From: a virus
Strand: one strand, 5' to 3'
Length of the DNA: 26,478 nucleotides
IMG/VR virus record: IMGVR_UViG_3300030380_000389
Coordinates: 1 to 26,478 of that record
The position numbers and the translations under genes are program-made. The notes under the pieces are model-generated. The model made no database searches. It was given only the letters and a program-made list of their open reading frames with translations, and had not been told where the DNA came from. Of the stretch, positions 4,379 through 20,433 are shown piece after piece. Within the stretch, counting starts at the first letter, position 1. The number at the start of each line of letters is the position of its first letter.

Positions 4379-5806
4379 TTATCTCGCTTTTAATTCTTCA
4401 ATCTCAGCTTTCAATTCTTTAATTGCTTCAATCAGATAACCAGTAATATTGCCGTAGTTTACACTTAGTGTACCCATTTCATCTTCTGCGGTGAGTACAA
4501 GTTCTGGAGCAATCTTCTGTAGTTCTTGTGCGATCACACCTGATGAGTCTTTGCCTGTTTCGTCACGAACATAGTGTACGCCTCTCATCTCGCTTACTTT
4601 AGATAAAGCATCAGGTATCGTAGTTATGTTAGATTTTAGACGTTCATCAGAGAACGCAGTAACATCATTGTTAAACGTAGCCGCACCTGCCGCTGACATA
4701 TCAAGGGTGAGAGCTGTAATGGCTGAACCACCGTCTTGGCCTTTGAACAGCATATCTTTGTCGTTTGTACCCACTTCAAGTACAAAATCACTACTTGAAT
4801 TAGAAGCAATTCCATAGATAACTGAAGCATCGCCAAAAAGTATTCTACCGCTATTATCAGAATTAAGAGTTATATCATCAACAGCATCAATCGTAAAAGT
4901 ATCTGTAGCTGTAAGTGTATCACCGTCCAGAGTCATTTCATCTACAACCACACCAGCGTTGGCTGTTACTACACCTGAAGGTACAAAAGTTCCCGTAACT
5001 GTTACACCACCTGCGGCAGTAGCTAGTTTTGCGGAATTGTCGTGGTAAAGGGTGACTGCGCCATTTTCCACAAATGCTGCCATAGTTTCTGAGTCAGAAC
5101 TCATAAGATTAATGTCATCTGATTTAATAGAAAGCGAACCTGCTACAGTGTTATTAATAAAAGCATTAGACCCATCATAAAAAATTTGTAAATCTGCCCC
5201 TGCACCTAGTTGAACTTTTGCACTATCTGCAAAAGTAGCGTTTCCAGCATGAGCCGTAGTAGATGCAAAATCTACAGCACCATCAATGTCAACAACGTCT
5301 AGGTTAGTTGTACCGTCTACATCTAAGTCTCCATCAAAATCTGAATTTCCTGAAACAGTTAGAGCCGCGGCTTTAGTTGTACCCGCTAAATTAAGATCTG
5401 TTAAAACATCGTAGACCACGGCACCAGAGCCACCGCCATCCGTTGCAATCATCTTTGTTTCACCCGCTAGGATCGCAACATTAGCACCACTTCCTTGTGT
5501 GAAAGTTAAAGTATAACTTGTAGCGTTTTCCATAATCCAAACTTTAGAAGATGTATTTGGCAAAAGCGTTACTGTACATGCCTGTCCTCCTCCAGTAAGT
5601 TTAAGAGCCATGCTTCGATCTGCATCTGAAGCACCATCCGCTATGGTTATATTATCTGTTGAGGCGTTAGCAATCGCTCTTGTCCCCCAACCGAAAGCTT
5701 GCCCAATTAATTCTAAGTTGGTGTTTGTCGTTGTACCCCATGTTCCCGATTGATCGCCTGTCGCCATCTCGTTGAGTCTGAGGTTATTTACATATGTACT
5801 TGCCAT
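4379..5806 (-). CDS. tail fibre with C-terminal S74 intramolecular chaperone
   Basis: 475 residues; ATG at 5806 behind AAGGAA. Residues 1-45 (YVNNLRLNEMATGDQSGTWG) are a typical marine phage fibre N-terminus. The middle holds repeated beta-helical units (DFDGDLDVDGTTNLDVVDID, then LYHDNSAKLATAAGGVTVTG and GADLQIFYDGSNAFI). From about 386 the sequence SDERLKSNI opens a roughly 90-residue peptidase S74 domain, with ALSKVSEMRGVHY, GVIAQELQKIAPELV, NYGNITGYLIEAIKEL and a closing coiled coil. In this family the domain trimerises the fibre and cuts itself off next to the conserved Ser (about S386). It probably forms the fibre shaft, with the Gly-rich adhesin next door as tip. Confidence 0.92.
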   Translation of the reverse strand: MASTYVNNLRLNEMATGDQSGTWGTTTNTNLELIGQAFGWGTRAIANASTDNITIADGASDADRSMALKLTGGGQACTVTLLPNTSSKVWIMENATSYTLTFTQGSGANVAILAGETKMIATDGGGSGAVVYDVLTDLNLAGTTKAAALTVSGNSDFDGDLDVDGTTNLDVVDIDGAVDFASTTAHAGNATFADSAKVQLGAGADLQIFYDGSNAFINNTVAGSLSIKSDDINLMSSDSETMAAFVENGAVTLYHDNSAKLATAAGGVTVTGTFVPSGVVTANAGVVVDEMTLDGDTLTATDTFTIDAVDDITLNSDNSGRILFGDASVIYGIASNSSSDFVLEVGTNDKDMLFKGQDGGSAITALTLDMSAAGAATFNNDVTAFSDERLKSNITTIPDALSKVSEMRGVHYVRDETGKDSSGVIAQELQKIAPELVLTAEDEMGTLSVNYGNITGYLIEAIKELKAEIEELKAR

Positions 5807-5816
5807 TTTATGTTCC

Positions 5817-6983
5817 TTATGCCGCTATTTCAGTCCAATCAGGTGTTGTTGAGGAGGGGACTATTTTACCCCATACGTTTTCTTCGCCAATGAACCCCGT
5901 AGCACTAACTCCTGTTGAGCTTATCACACAAGACCCTTGTATGGCAATAGTTCCTAGTGCAGAAGTTCCAGAAACTCCTGTAGGGGATATTATTGAGGTG
6001 TGGTCTGTCGTTACTGTTCCAAGAGCCGAAGTCATAGCAGGGGCATTTGTAACGGGAGCACCTGTAGTAGGTAGTATGTTAAACACGAAAGGTGTATTCG
6101 CTGTTCCACCCATGCCACTATGGTTTGTACAATAGTAATATAAAGTTGGAGCAAACTCTGGTACAGTTATCTCTGTATACGCACCCGCTTGACCGGGAGT
6201 TCCGTTCACCGTTACTCCAGTGGTATACTCCGATCCCCCAGCGTGTGATCCATTGGACGTAGTAGAAAATCTAAGAGGATGACCTGAATTAGAAGAGTCT
6301 GACTGATCAAACCTGTAAGTGTTGCGCTCAAACAACTCTTGTGTTTGTTGTTGCACACCATCAATAAAATATTTATTTGCTCCACTTACATTTTGAACAG
6401 TCACTGTTTTTGTAATTGTTGTAGCAGAATAACCACTAATACTGACTGTCGAAGAAACTCCTGAAGGTGTTACAAGTGCTGTACCTACAACGGACTCGTC
6501 CCCTAATCCTATAGAACCAACCATTCCCGTTTCAGTAACTATTGCACCAGCACCAGCAAGAGCAGTGCCTAGCGCAGAAATCCCTACTACACCTGACTCT
6601 ATACTACGCCCTTCTGCAACGACTGTTGCTGTGCCTACCGCACCAGTGCCTACTTGACCCGCTACTAACCCACCTCCAATAGGTAGCCCTTCTGCAACTA
6701 TGCCACCCCAAAGACCAGAGCCAAAACCATCTTGACCCCAACCACCAAAAGGCATTGATCCTTCAACACCTGTTACTACGGCTGTTACAGGTATTTTAGC
6801 TAAAACGGAACCTACCGCAGAAGTCGCGGCAATACCTGTTGCTTCAATAATAAATATAGAAGAAGCGGCTACTGTTCCCAGTGCCGAAGTTGCGGCAACA
6901 CCTGTTGGGGAAACGGCAACATCAAGTTGACCGCCCCAACGATTATTACCCCAAGTGCTTTCACCCCAACCTATATTAGCCAA
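5817..6983 (-). CDS. W-G-repeat tail protein with a cupredoxin-like domain
   Basis: 388 residues. The start is TTG at 6983, supported by AAAGGAG seven to eight bases upstream and no nearby ATG. Residues 1-18 (GWGESTWGNNRWGG) and 80-94 (GGWGQDGFGSGLWGG) are W-G repeats. Between and after them are repeats of the form TGVxATSALGTV (about 27-40, 49-60, 130-140, 315-324, 335-346). Residues about 190-303 form a separate domain with GHPLRFS (H235) and YYYCTNHSGMGG (C285, H288, M291). This is the His/Cys-x2-His-x2-Met ligand pattern of type-1 copper cupredoxins, and the domain resembles ones seen in marine phages and bacteria as I remember. It is presumably a tail or fibre component; copper binding is inferred. 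Confidence 0.85.
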   Translation of the reverse strand: MANIGWGESTWGNNRWGGQLDVAVSPTGVAATSALGTVAASSIFIIEATGIAATSAVGSVLAKIPVTAVVTGVEGSMPFGGWGQDGFGSGLWGGIVAEGLPIGGGLVAGQVGTGAVGTATVVAEGRSIESGVVGISALGTALAGAGAIVTETGMVGSIGLGDESVVGTALVTPSGVSSTVSISGYSATTITKTVTVQNVSGANKYFIDGVQQQTQELFERNTYRFDQSDSSNSGHPLRFSTTSNGSHAGGSEYTTGVTVNGTPGQAGAYTEITVPEFAPTLYYYCTNHSGMGGTANTPFVFNILPTTGAPVTNAPAMTSALGTVTTDHTSIISPTGVSGTSALGTIAIQGSCVISSTGVSATGFIGEENVWGKIVPSSTTPDWTEIAA

Positions 6984-7740: not shown

Positions 7741-8440
7741 TTTTATACTCTCTCCCATTTACATATTGTAGATCATGTCTTCCAAACACCACAGGATCTT
7801 GATCCACTGGTTCAGGTGGTTCCATCTTAGATTGTTTGGTTATTAACAAGCCACCATTTTCATGTGTTTGAACCAAAGGATCTTTTAATCTGTGATAACC
7901 ATATAGTTTTTCGTTTTCTGGTACATTCGTATCCAAAAGACCTGAATTATGTGCAACTTCTATCTTTATTCCTCTTGATGTTGCTATGGCACACCAAAAC
8001 TCAGTACAAGCTCGACCAGCTTCTGCCATATTAACGTGCCTATAAGTGTAATCTAATCCGTACAAACAAAGTTCTTTTGCACCATAGTATATTGCATACG
8101 CTATTGCATACGGCACAGTATTATTAAAATAACAAATGTTTAATTCTTTAATTACTTCTTCAAGCGGATAAGGTTCTAGATGTTTAACTCTATTATCCAT
8201 TTCACAAGTAAGTATGGGCTTAGTGTTTTTTTCTAAAAACTCTCTAGCAATACCTGTTTGTGATCCTGCGTTCTCTGAGTCCAAGAACCTTGAAACTGGA
8301 TCCATCATAATAGTCTTGTCTACATGAATAATACCACCAACGCAGTTTATTCCCCATACCTCATCAAACTTTTCTGAACGTATCCGTGCAGCTATATAAT
8401 CGGAATAGCTCCCACCTAACCCAACAATAGCTATTTTCAT
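7733..8440 (-). CDS. DUF115-like Rossmann-fold protein
   Basis: 235 residues, start coupled to the upstream stop through ATGA. It opens with IAIVGLGGSYSDYIAARI, a Gly-rich first loop, then EVWGINCVGGIIHVDKTIMM. Residues 106-131 carry NNTVPYAIAYAIYYGAKEL and LYGLDYTY, matching the pattern N-x2-x3-A-x3-A-x3-GAK-x-I-x-L-x-G-x-D of DUF115/MptE-like and related sugar- or pterin-modifying proteins. The last 45 residues (EPPEPVDQDPVVFGRHDL) are Pro-rich and look like an added tail. It is an enzyme-like protein inside the connector genes, so it may modify a virion protein, glycan or nucleotide sugar. Family assignment is by motif only; the substrate is unknown. Confidence 0.7.
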   Translation of the reverse strand: MKIAIVGLGGSYSDYIAARIRSEKFDEVWGINCVGGIIHVDKTIMMDPVSRFLDSENAGSQTGIAREFLEKNTKPILTCEMDNRVKHLEPYPLEEVIKELNICYFNNTVPYAIAYAIYYGAKELCLYGLDYTYRHVNMAEAGRACTEFWCAIATSRGIKIEVAHNSGLLDTNVPENEKLYGYHRLKDPLVQTHENGGLLITKQSKMEPPEPVDQDPVVFGRHDLQYVNGREYKNV

Positions 8441-9129
8441 GATCTGCGTCTTTCTGGTAATCCTCTTCGATAAGCGTCTGAGTTCTCTCTAGCTTCAGCA
8501 TAGTCTTTTAATCTAGCTAGTGACTCTTGATATCGTATCTCATACATTTGTGCCAAATCTTGTTCCCCCTTCATGTACAAATTAGCCTCAACTAAACTAC
8601 CAAACAACATAGCATTCGGGGCGTTCTCACTTAACCAGGTGGTTCCATTATCACCAAGGGCGGTTAAACTTTGAGGCCTGTAAAAATAATGTAACTCCAT
8701 TTTATATGTATCATCAGGTACAGGTGCAAGAATAAAATTATCCTGATCAAAGTAGGCATAGTACAAAGGTTTTCCTACCTGTAAGAGAGACGCTGTCGTA
8801 TCTTGAGGAGCGGGAGTGTATGTCTGAATAAAGTTCACATCTTTTTGTAACAAAAATGTTCTAGCGTTAATTCCAGTAACAGCTTCTGCTCCATTGTATT
8901 GAGCAGACAGGCTAAAAGAAGCGAGGTAATCAGAGGGTACAGCAAGAAATTGACTGTTAGCATAAACAGTACCATCTACGTTTTTTCTAAATGTTTCTAA
9001 ATCAACTGATTTTAAAATCCGTTCTTCTACTGTTTTAATAAAAGTAGGAAGGTTAGCAACGAATGTTGTTTCCGTATTATCAGCGTATTGTTGTATTGCT
9101 GTTTTTAATTCTGCATATGTAAAACTCAT
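8437..9129 (-). CDS. head-tail adaptor (P22 gp4-like or related), second copy
   Basis: 230 residues; start and stop are both part of ATGA overlaps with the flanking genes. Residues 1-40 are helical (SFTYAELKTAIQQYADNTET, then LPTFIKTVEERIL). A beta middle follows (VDGTVYANSQFLAVPSDYLA and YFDQDNFILAPVPDDTYKME), and the C-terminus is a long charged helix (YQESLARLKDYAEARENS). This layout, with a buried ring helix and a strand segment reading PLYYAYFDQ, is typical of the adaptor or head-completion proteins that sit under the portal in short-tailed phages. The 222-aa protein two genes upstream has the same plan. Assignment is by layout and context. Confidence 0.7.
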   Translation of the reverse strand: MSFTYAELKTAIQQYADNTETTFVANLPTFIKTVEERILKSVDLETFRKNVDGTVYANSQFLAVPSDYLASFSLSAQYNGAEAVTGINARTFLLQKDVNFIQTYTPAPQDTTASLLQVGKPLYYAYFDQDNFILAPVPDDTYKMELHYFYRPQSLTALGDNGTTWLSENAPNAMLFGSLVEANLYMKGEQDLAQMYEIRYQESLARLKDYAEARENSDAYRRGLPERRRS

Positions 9130-9449
9130 GTTACTACCACCGTTACAGTTCCTATCTCTCCTGTCCCAGGGAGATCATTAGGAGTTAATCCATCATTACT
9201 TGCCATACCTACAGGATTCCACCCATATTGTATAACTCTTTCTGCGGCTAAATTTGTTTGAGGTCTGGGATCTCGCAGTGCTTGAGGGTCTGGAGAAACA
9301 GGAGGAGGACTTAACTGAGGTTGTTTTTCTTCCCATTCATCAGGTCCAACTTTAGATCCATTCCATTCTGTCCTCATAGAATGAAGACGATATCTCCATC
9401 CAGATCTATCTGATATTCCCCAAGCTTTTTTACCACTTGCATATGCCAT
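9126..9449 (-). CDS. small connector-region protein ending in a GTVTV motif
   Basis: 107 residues, joined to both neighbours (TAATG at the start, ATGA at the end). The N-terminus reads ASGKKAWGISDRSGWRYRLH, followed by RTEWNGSKVGPDEWEEKQPQ, a motif often seen in marine phage proteins that carry 'SGxxYPxxxxRxEWNGxxVxxxEYE'. Residues about 43-65 are Pro-rich (SPPPVSPDPQALRDPRPQ). The end TGEIGTVTVVVT is nearly the same as that of the 100-aa protein at 359-661. Its position between two gp4-like adaptors suggests a small connector or tail component. Function is otherwise unknown. Confidence 0.75.
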   Translation of the reverse strand: MAYASGKKAWGISDRSGWRYRLHSMRTEWNGSKVGPDEWEEKQPQLSPPPVSPDPQALRDPRPQTNLAAERVIQYGWNPVGMASNDGLTPNDLPGTGEIGTVTVVVT

Positions 9450-10117
9450 TAGCTAACCCTCAAGTAACTACCACTTGGTCTTAGAGGAAGATCTAAGAAG
9501 TCTTGATCCATATCAGAGGCTCTTGCAAACTCTTCTTCATACACTGCTTTTAATATTTGCAATCTATCGGGGGCTCTTTTCATAGCCATATAGTATGCAA
9601 GTCCCGCAACCATACAAGGATAGAACCGCAAAGGAGCTTCTACATTGTTGTAAAGATAATCTGCGTCTTCCATTTGTTGAATGTAATAATATGTAAGAGT
9701 GTCTGTTGAGTTTTCTGGTGTAGCCCAAACATTTAAAACTGGTGATATTGAACGATCAAAATAGTACTGACTAGGTCTTCCCTGGGTGGTTTTATCAGGA
9801 ATAGTGGCATAATTATCTCGACTAATTCTATCCATCTCATAATCTGTTCCATCCCGGTTCAGAACTACTTGTAGAATATCAACAGTATGTTTGCTTAAAG
9901 TGTATGCCGAAGTACCTTGTGTTAAAGCTTGAGTAGCCGAACGTACTGTCCAAAGATTTACACCTCTGTTCGACCAATCAGCAAACATCAAATTAAGAGA
10001 TCTTCTAGCAGTTTCTGCGTCATAACCAGTTCTAACTTCTAAACCACACCGCTCATACGCTTCTTCAATAATCTCACCAATACTAAGATCGAAGTTTCTA
10101 GTCCCTGACGTAGCCAT
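9449..10117 (-). CDS. head-tail adaptor (P22 gp4-like)
   Basis: 222 residues; ATG at 10117 behind GAGGG, overlapping the membrane-protein gene by 20 bases. It opens with FDLSIGEIIEEAYERCGLEV, then TGYDAETARRSLNLMFADWS and RGVNLWTVRS, a helical start seen in gp4/tail accessory proteins of short-tailed phages. The middle is beta (GTSAYTLSKHTVDILQVVLN, then GRPSQYYFDRSISPVLNVWA) and the C-terminus is helical (PDRLQILKAVYEEEFARASD). In that family the protein docks to the portal, closes the filled head and starts the tail. Its partner in this window would be the portal at 21183-23705. Family inferred from memory of the pattern. Confidence 0.75.
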   Translation of the reverse strand: MATSGTRNFDLSIGEIIEEAYERCGLEVRTGYDAETARRSLNLMFADWSNRGVNLWTVRSATQALTQGTSAYTLSKHTVDILQVVLNRDGTDYEMDRISRDNYATIPDKTTQGRPSQYYFDRSISPVLNVWATPENSTDTLTYYYIQQMEDADYLYNNVEAPLRFYPCMVAGLAYYMAMKRAPDRLQILKAVYEEEFARASDMDQDFLDLPLRPSGSYLRVS

Positions 10118-12185: not shown

Positions 12186-13097
12186 TTACGCTCCTGGCGA
12201 ACCGAACACACAACGTGGATCAGAGAATCCGAAGCTATAACGCTCCCGAGCCTTGTATCTCATGTTGCCTGTATCGAAGTCGGCCTCCATGTTTGTAGAC
12301 ATTGGAGTACGCTCGAAATGGATAAACCCTCTAGGAGCATCTGTTTTAACCCACCACGCATCTGGATCAGTTAGGAAATCGTTAACGGTATAACCGTCAG
12401 GAACCATTCCCATTGATTTGATTGCGTTAGTGTCGTTATCAGCAGTGCCAACCCGAAGATTAGATACCATGATACGTTCTGCGATGAACTGAAGCTGACG
12501 TGGTAGAATTAACTTCATACCTCGAAGAGCTACTTTTAGTCCTCGCTCATCAACATACCCAGCAATACTGATCAACGCATCTTCCAAAGAAGTTTCGTTT
12601 AGATCAGAAGCAGTAGATGGTGTGTTTGATAGTGTCCCACCGTTTGTAAGAGGGTGTGCAGTTGAACAAAGTGCAACTCCATCTCCTCCAGCAGAAGCTC
12701 CACCAGTGAACGCATTGTTCAATATAGCGGCAGCTTTAACTTGCTTTGTGTGGGCCATTGATCTCGCAAGAGCACGGGTGTATCGGCTTCCGAGACGATC
12801 ATAAAGATTGTCCTCGATAGCTTCTTCCGTGATTGAGAAAGCCAATGCTATTGTTTCGTTGTTGTAACGAGCAGTGAATGCTTCGTTAGCATCATCGAAG
12901 TTTACAGCGGAACCTTCCGATTTATTCGGAGCAGCACCAAATCCAGAAAGCATTACTTCCTCTTCAAACGCTCTGTCTGAAGACTCAGTAGTATAGATTT
13001 CTGCATGCTGATTTTCGTACCTGTCGTACTCCATGCCAAATAGGGCATTGAGACCAGGCTCTAGCTCTTTTGCTAGTTGTGCGCGTGATATAGCCAT
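12186..13097 (-). CDS. major capsid protein (HK97-like)
   Basis: 303 residues; ATG at 13097 behind AAGGAG. It opens with ISRAQLAKELEPGLNALFGM and has the spine-helix region around 95-125 (NLYDRLGSRYTRALARSMAH, then TKQVKAAAILNNAFTGG). The middle has LCSTAHPLTNGGTLSNTPS, the region 165-200 is the A-domain-like YVDERGLKVALRGMKLILPR, then FIAERIMVSNLRVGTADND. It ends YKARERYSFGFSDPRCVFGS. The pattern, and the position directly after scaffold and accessory head genes, fit Mu gpT-like and other HK97-fold capsid proteins, about the usual length. It builds the icosahedral head with the scaffold (14244-15251). A strong terminator follows. Confidence 0.88.
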   Translation of the reverse strand: MAISRAQLAKELEPGLNALFGMEYDRYENQHAEIYTTESSDRAFEEEVMLSGFGAAPNKSEGSAVNFDDANEAFTARYNNETIALAFSITEEAIEDNLYDRLGSRYTRALARSMAHTKQVKAAAILNNAFTGGASAGGDGVALCSTAHPLTNGGTLSNTPSTASDLNETSLEDALISIAGYVDERGLKVALRGMKLILPRQLQFIAERIMVSNLRVGTADNDTNAIKSMGMVPDGYTVNDFLTDPDAWWVKTDAPRGFIHFERTPMSTNMEADFDTGNMRYKARERYSFGFSDPRCVFGSPGA

Positions 13098-15260: not shown

Positions 15261-15746
15261 CTAAATATGCTTAACGTCATCTGGTTCTAGTATGGTAGCA
15301 ATCACTTCGTCATCATTAATGATACGAACCTCACCACCTTCTATTTTAAAACGAGATCCTGCATAGCGACCAATGCAAACCCATTGACCTTCCTTGCACC
15401 ACGGTTCTGCGCCAGAGCCAAACTTATTTGGATCCTGATAGGCTAGTGGTCCAAGACGCATCACATAAGCAACAACAGTTGCTATAGATTCTCGTTCACG
15501 AACTTCTTCTGGAATAAACAATCCTCCACCAGTTTGTGCCTTACCCTGGTACGGCATAACTAAGATGCGCCACCCTGTGGGTTGAGGTAATCTTTCAACT
15601 AATGGTTGATCTAAGAGGGAAGGATCTAAGACCCTTTCATCGGCGGGTATATACGCGCTTTTAGCTTCTGAAGACGATTTCTCTGCCTCCTTTTCAGCTT
15701 TCCTTTTCTGCGCGACATGTTCAGGAAGATATAAGGTCTTCGACAT
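15261..15746 (-). CDS. GroES-like co-chaperonin
   Basis: 161 residues from ATG 15746 (MSKTLYLPEH), which has GGAG upstream and is preferred over the earlier TTG at 15797; it overlaps the previous gene by 26 bases. Residues 1-55 are a charged extension absent from bacterial GroES. Residues about 57-153 match Cpn10: PTGWRILVMPYQGKAQTGG, the mobile loop ending G-G-G-L76-F77-I78-P, then EVRERESIATVVAYVMRLGP and the closing WVCIGRYAGSRFKIEG plus VRIINDDEVIATILEP. Residues 100-120 are a longer roof loop. Phage GroES-like proteins (T4 gp31) replace or adjust host GroES so that GroEL can fold the capsid protein, and this gene lies just upstream of scaffold and capsid genes. Strong family match; partner choice inferred. 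Confidence 0.9.
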   Translation of the reverse strand: MSKTLYLPEHVAQKRKAEKEAEKSSSEAKSAYIPADERVLDPSLLDQPLVERLPQPTGWRILVMPYQGKAQTGGGLFIPEEVRERESIATVVAYVMRLGPLAYQDPNKFGSGAEPWCKEGQWVCIGRYAGSRFKIEGGEVRIINDDEVIATILEPDDVKHI

Positions 15747-15936
15747 CGTCAGCGTTCTTCTCCAGCAGGGCTTTAATTTCTTCTCTGGCAAAGGCAACGC
15801 CCCGTATCTCGCCTACCAAAGATTTGTACTGCTCCCAGTCCTGTGCTGCACCGTTGGATAGAGCTTGAGAGATATCCTCTTCTCTATCCTTCAATACCTT
15901 TAACATATAACGAGCAAATTCAACGCCGTCTAGCAC
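15721..15936 (-). CDS. small helical acidic protein
   Basis: 71 residues from a GTG start at 15936, immediately after the stop of the previous gene (15937). Nearly all helical: LDGVEFARYMLKVLKDREED, then WEQYKSLVGEIRGVAFAREE and a C-terminal KNADDVEDLISS. No cysteine or hydrophobic segment. A short helical protein before the GroES-like gene could be a scaffold helper or a small terminase-like factor, but no signature supports either. The 26-base overlap with the GroES-like gene implies joint translation. Real gene likely; function unknown. Confidence 0.7.
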   Translation of the reverse strand: MLDGVEFARYMLKVLKDREEDISQALSNGAAQDWEQYKSLVGEIRGVAFAREEIKALLEKNADDVEDLISS

Positions 15937-16195: not shown

Positions 16196-16708
16196 TTATT
16201 CTGTAAGTTCTAACGCTGCTTCCAACGTCTCATCGTTTCTTCTAGACCATCCACGACCAAAAGTGTCAAACGTACTTAGTCCTTCATAGAACTCTTGCCT
16301 CGTAGAATGCATCTTAACTACTACATCTTCAGGTAGCATATCATGTACAGCTTGGATTGTCATGGGGCCAATGTGTCCATCTGGTTCTGCGCCAACAATT
16401 TCTTGTAATGCTCGAGCACTTCTAGAAACTCCTGAGTTAACAGCCCAATCAAAAACAGCCCAATCTACTCCACTAGGTAGATCATCACAATGAGCTCTAT
16501 TCCAATACTCTTCTTCATATATGGGGTACACATCTTCTTGAACAAGGCTCTTCATTTCTCCGTCCATAACTTGACGACCTACATGTTGTTCATAAACGGC
16601 TCTCGTAACGCCGTGATTTGTTTCACCACCAGGATCATCTGGATGATCAACATATCCACCTTCATGTTCCAACAACATCTCCATGCAATGTTCAAAATTA
16701 CTTCTCAT
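16196..16708 (-). CDS. endolysin, GH108 muramidase
   Basis: 170 residues; ATG at 16708 shares its A with the stop of the holin-like gene (TGATG). The N-terminal domain has LLEHEGGYVDHPDDPGGETN with the GH108 catalytic Glu at E16, then HGVTRAVYEQHVG. The helix with YWNRAHCDDLPSGVDWAVFD and WAVNSG follows. Residues about 100-125 (LQEIVGAEPDGHIGPMTIQA) are the peptidoglycan-binding part common in this family, and it ends in FGRGWSRR. It hydrolyses the murein glycan backbone to release progeny. No signal peptide, so it needs the neighbouring holin-like protein to reach the wall. Length is usual for the family. Confidence 0.93.
   Translation of the reverse strand: MRSNFEHCMEMLLEHEGGYVDHPDDPGGETNHGVTRAVYEQHVGRQVMDGEMKSLVQEDVYPIYEEEYWNRAHCDDLPSGVDWAVFDWAVNSGVSRSARALQEIVGAEPDGHIGPMTIQAVHDMLPEDVVVKMHSTRQEFYEGLSTFDTFGRGWSRRNDETLEAALELTE

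Positions 16709-18786: not shown

Positions 18787-20433
<1,647 letters not shown>

Follow-up and report, generated by a model that had tools for sequence, protein, structure and literature searches.

The described proteins closest to the domain reported here are of two kinds. On the cellular side stand type-1 blue copper proteins: amicyanin (for example 1aac), a soluble electron carrier, and the respiratory electron-transfer proteins rusticyanin and three-domain nitrite reductase, the latter with a cupredoxin at its N-terminus (2dv6, 6tfo). On the viral side, iron-binding HxH motifs have been described in phage tail fibres, among them T4 gp37 and that of Alteromonas phage R22Y, in which paired histidines hold octahedral iron (PMC11705849). 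A search of the open-access literature (subscription journals lay outside its scope) found no cupredoxin named in a phage virion; an intact copper-protein site on phage tails is undescribed there, though present in the baseplate protein gp9 of hundreds of cyanophage records.

We analysed a stretch of DNA of 26,478 nucleotides from an uncultured marine phage (hereafter the window), in which a protein of the tail region contains such a domain. The domain resembles amicyanin in its fold, in the order H...C..H..M and in its C-x2-H-x2-M loop, but it forms part of virion proteins where amicyanin is a free carrier. Like the HxH fibres it would, if metal-bound, place a metal in the tail; in contrast to them it would do so through an independent fold whose ligands include a Cys, and the HxH motif is absent from the 388-residue sequence of the window protein. 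The fold and the ligand set were known already; what is new is where they occur, in proteins of the tail and baseplate of ocean phages. We take the domain to be a metal-binding, probably copper-binding, cupredoxin on the virion, inferring copper binding from the computed fold and ligand conservation.

Placement and fold of the inserted domain

The 388-residue protein is built of W-G repeats and ‘TGVxxTSALGTV’ units, a series that is broken by residues 190–303, which include GHPLRF and YYYCTNHSGMGG. The initial annotation had placed a cupredoxin-like domain at 6015–6417; a domain does lie there, but that span overshoots by about 60 nucleotides into the following rod segment, residues 190–303 corresponding to 6075–6416. 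The features of this region, with their basis in brackets, are:

5817–6983, minus strand: 388-residue tail-region protein (open reading frame with a TTG start; orthologues L002, L003 and L395–L416)
6417–6983, minus strand: N-terminal repeat segment, residues 1–189 (orthologues, some of which carry the insertion and some not)
6075–6416, minus strand: cupredoxin domain, residues 190–303 (AlphaFold model, PDB fold matches, family alignment)
6279–6281, minus strand: codon of H235, putative first His ligand (H in 361 of 362 Cys-containing relatives)
6129–6131, minus strand: codon of C285, putative Cys ligand (sequence and family alignment)
6120–6122, minus strand: codon of H288, putative second His ligand (H in 362 of 362 Cys-containing relatives)
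6111–6113, minus strand: codon of M291, putative axial Met ligand (M in 361 of 362 Cys-containing relatives)
5820–6074, minus strand: C-terminal repeat segment, residues 304–388 (repeats run on in the domain-less orthologues L408 and L412–L414)
4379–5806: tail fibre with a Peptidase_S74 chaperone domain

Because its neighbour is this chaperone-bearing tail fibre, and with homologues of the domain found in tail fibres and baseplate proteins, the 388-residue product is likely to be a tail protein.

The full-length AlphaFold model of the protein is unusable (pLDDT 35). The domain by itself, modelled from a 67-sequence alignment, yields a confident structure (mean pLDDT 93.7, pTM 0.86); since the members of that alignment had been preselected for the four ligands, its invariant columns were set aside as evidence. 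The top PDB matches of the domain model in Foldseek are nitrite reductase, rusticyanin, multicopper oxidases and AcoP. By VIA-align the best of these are the N-terminal domain of the three-domain nitrite reductase 2dv6 (Z 9.6, 3.2 Å, 103 residues) and rusticyanin (Z 8.6), both with only 15–16% identity to the phage domain, and many small laccases match as well. The domain is predicted to be a Greek-key β-sandwich that matches solved cupredoxins, as members of this superfamily do, and the cupredoxin fold that had been proposed from the sequence, which a model of any other fold would have contradicted, is borne out by a confident model whose best solved matches are copper proteins. The matches listed are copper proteins and a few others, none from an Ig-like family, VIA-align having re-examined only what Foldseek had already matched. 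Separately, giant-virus ‘Beta-sandwich proteins’ (Pithovirus, Marseillevirus) in BFVD match the domain model at E values of 1e-5 to 1e-6 (ranks 39, 45 and 50).

In the model H235 immediately precedes a strand, C285 ends the penultimate strand, and H288 and M291 lie in the loop preceding the last strand, positions of secondary structure at which cupredoxins hold their copper ligands. When the profile is aligned with profiles of cellular cupredoxins, both His and the Cys fall on their counterparts and the Met falls on a Met, at probabilities of 67% and 92%, compared with 0.1–0.2% for reversed cellular cupredoxins used as a control. Whether the four residues would converge, the second condition posed at the outset, is addressed only indirectly, by their places in the secondary structure and by this alignment, which agree. 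The Met that hhalign places opposite the phage Met is the one at +6 in pseudoazurin-type sequences, whereas we take the true ligand there to be the Met at +8; the alignment therefore supports the His, Cys and His pairs and not the Met.

The sequence has what marks a type-1 copper site, namely a conserved His and, further on, a last loop that contributes Cys, His and Met, and the order His, Cys, His, Met read from it at the outset is indeed that of blue copper cupredoxins. Its spacing is cupredoxin-like too, as had been claimed: C-x2-H-x2-M is the spacing of amicyanin (CTPHPFM) and not that of plastocyanin, which is C-x2-H-x4-M. Amicyanin is absent from the PDB sequence matches of the domain and of its profiles, the two having at that level the ligand spacing alone in common, and it has Asn after the first His where Pro follows in 356 of the 362 Cys-containing domains.

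Direct sequence searches with the window domain return no match in Pfam, NCBIfam or the PDB sequences, and neither Pfam nor NCBIfam has a family for it. The domain has its fold class in common with PF00127 (Copper-bind, the plastocyanin/azurin family), but the curated cut-off of that family is not reached: the window domain does not match, and the single match among 67 relatives has an E value of 0.03. PF25489 (a plant At5g54830-like domain) is the commonest weak Pfam match (17 of the 67 relatives, best E 0.0012) and is perhaps a distant eukaryotic relative.

Spread and mobility of the domain

That similar domains occur in marine phages and bacteria had also been suggested, and this understates the case. 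The window domain matches at least 356 of 50,697 phage records, nearly all of them from cyanophages and a few from phages of SAR11 and Methylophilales; nearly all are aquatic. Cyanophage gp9, the baseplate wedge tail fibre connector (PHROG 677), ends in a C-terminal copy whose ligands are those of the window domain, and this version matches 336 records, nearly all from T4-like cyanophages. The baseplate protein gp9 carries the domain in most matching cyanophage records, whereas in rod proteins of the window type it is optional.

Occurrence in cellular genomes is rare. At least 27 loci were found in 84,980 species, all in marine metagenome or single-cell assemblies to judge by their titles; the figure is a lower bound because the scan was pattern-based, and many of these loci are perhaps phage DNA. 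Two taxonomic samples, each including the genome on which it was centred, contain the domain in 2 of 299 and 2 of 197 genomes. Likely bacterial relatives are L420 and L422, neighbours in genome G164 that each consist of a single domain behind an apparent signal peptide, and a protein of a Porticoccaceae assembly (L421), also with an apparent signal peptide, in which Gln occupies the axial Met position, a substitution known from stellacyanin. From their sequences all three look secreted, as would be expected of cupredoxins.

Across the fetched loci the domain is placed N-terminally, internally, C-terminally or as a pair, and its carriers comprise gp9 connectors, baseplate wedge proteins, tail fibres and an SU10-type adaptor. 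At the window site itself, the orthologues L408, L412, L413 and L414 continue uninterrupted without it. Two other genes of the window, neither of which carries the domain, have counterparts that do: in phage 023Pt_psg01 it lies N-terminally on a homologue of the adaptor at 9449–10117, and in L061 and L081 it lies towards the C-terminus, after an N-terminal part that by eye resembles the 107-residue protein. These genes and a further adaptor are:

8437–9129, minus strand: SU10-type adaptor (PF24175; Pfam match)
9126–9449, minus strand: 107-residue protein, without the cupredoxin domain (homologue in 023Pt_psg01 by tblastn)
9449–10117, minus strand: SU10-type adaptor, without the cupredoxin domain (PF24175; Pfam match)

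The searched 29.6-kb region of phage HTVC027P holds no copy of the domain. In relatives of the window phage, then, the domain is a movable module, optional at the window site. The two PF24175 adaptor-type proteins flank the 107-residue reading frame.

Ligand conservation and possible roles

Conservation was assessed over 362 distinct Cys-containing domains with a median pairwise identity of 35%, in which H235, C285, H288 and M291 rank as the top four columns by conservation. The ligand codons vary synonymously (CAT/CAC, TGT/TGC) while the residues are fixed, and dN/dS in four orthologue pairs is 0.10–0.19 in the domain against 0.23–0.45 in its flanks; in these pairs the domain is coding and under stronger constraint than the sequence around it.

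A chance motif is ruled out by the rank of the ligands as the top four columns together with the synonymous codon change. An intradomain disulfide is ruled out as well, since exactly one Cys is present in 357 of the 362 Cys-containing domains.

Searching the fetched loci with the family profile gives 525 domain copies, and masking the four ligand columns leaves that number unchanged. All four ligands are present in 361 of 418 distinct domains; in 56 the Cys, the second His and the Met are missing together, also when the ligand-masked profile is used for the search, and a single domain is intermediate (L045, with D, C, H, L). The 56 domains without these three ligands represent a second, degenerate copy within a cyanophage baseplate wedge protein, and several of these proteins also show a first copy with all four ligands. 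One such protein is L089 (reading frame at 2849; degenerate copy at residues 549–689), whose first copy retains all four ligands while the second is without Cys, second His and Met; the degenerate copy is alike in many of L092–L170. The degenerate baseplate copy is a natural metal-free control. As the degenerate copies may descend from one ancestral loss, their joint ligand loss counts as few independent events.

Drawing on the computed fold, ligand conservation, joint ligand loss, modularity and spread on tail and baseplate proteins, we lean towards a type-1 cupredoxin that is displayed on the virion, where a rod-like tail protein may carry or lack it, is loaded with copper late and works at host contact. 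The domain would fold metal-free in the host cytoplasm. A point against this reading is that phages assemble there, where free copper is probably almost absent, so that loading would have to come later. The metal, presumably copper, would be taken up after virion release or from the envelope of the host. Once bound, it would stiffen the loop that bears the ligands, and the rigid patch so formed on the surface might help the tail to touch or hold the host during adsorption. Ocean phage particles may on this account carry copper, which would offer a concrete, testable chemical handle on their attachment and add a copper side to the proposed link between phages and iron. A broader claim, that most T4-like cyanophages and some SAR11-type phages have functional copper centres on baseplate and tail, loaded from seawater or the envelope and required for attachment, we hold only tentatively and think rather doubtful; were it correct, phage particles would be a copper-binding component of the ocean.

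A metal could also have a purely structural part, its ion stabilising a small β-sandwich that acts as a generic decoration or adhesion domain in the manner of the Ig-like domains of phage tails. The optional presence of the domain and its movement between virion proteins are typical of decoration domains, and the second baseplate copy manages without ligands; yet that very copy shows that the fold can persist metal-free, and the full ligand set is nonetheless retained in 361 of 418 copies; we consider this account unlikely. Structural or adhesive use of some kind is nevertheless favoured over catalysis, given that the hosts are diverse and that neither a partner nor a second redox centre was found. 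A redox-active site would pass electrons to or from a component of the host envelope, or destroy reactive oxygen, at the moment of contact, as might be expected of a ligand set typically used in electron transfer; the His-Pro at the first ligand, also found at the laccase type-1 site, and the small laccases among the structural matches agree with it. The lack of a redox partner or second centre just noted, and the presence of the domain in phages of cyanobacteria, SAR11 and Methylophilales, contrary to what a single host partner would predict, make such a site improbable in our view.

More doubtful again is a different metal (zinc, silver or iron), or a lure that engages host metal uptake as a copper analogue of the ‘Ferrojan horse’. 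Sites of Cys, His and Met do take other soft metals, and HxH iron-binding motifs are known from tail fibres (PMC11705849), but both the fold and the exact ligand set match copper proteins, and no link to uptake receptors was found. Finally, the residues might be retained for packing in a domain that binds no metal and is a mere binding module. The first-column His, still present in 14 of the 56 copies without Cys, second His and Met, indicates that this column alone can persist where there is no site; packing, however, would not single out H, C, H and M as the top columns with three of them lost jointly, and we give this explanation very little credence. The late-loaded copper module at host contact remains the reading we prefer.

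Gene neighbourhood and phage kinship

Among isolates, the closest terminases and capsid proteins to those of the window are from SAR11 phage HTVC027P and phage 023Pt_psg01. Further genes of the window are:

12186–13097: capsid protein
15261–15797, minus strand: GroES-like co-chaperonin (PF00166)
16196–16708, minus strand: likely endolysin, combining glycosyl hydrolase 108 and a peptidoglycan-binding domain (PF05838, PF09374)
18787–20433, minus strand: 548-residue protein that matches nothing in Pfam and contains long acidic repeats of Pro-Glu and Asp-Met-Glu

A GroES is annotated at the equivalent position in the gene order of both HTVC027P and 023Pt_psg01.
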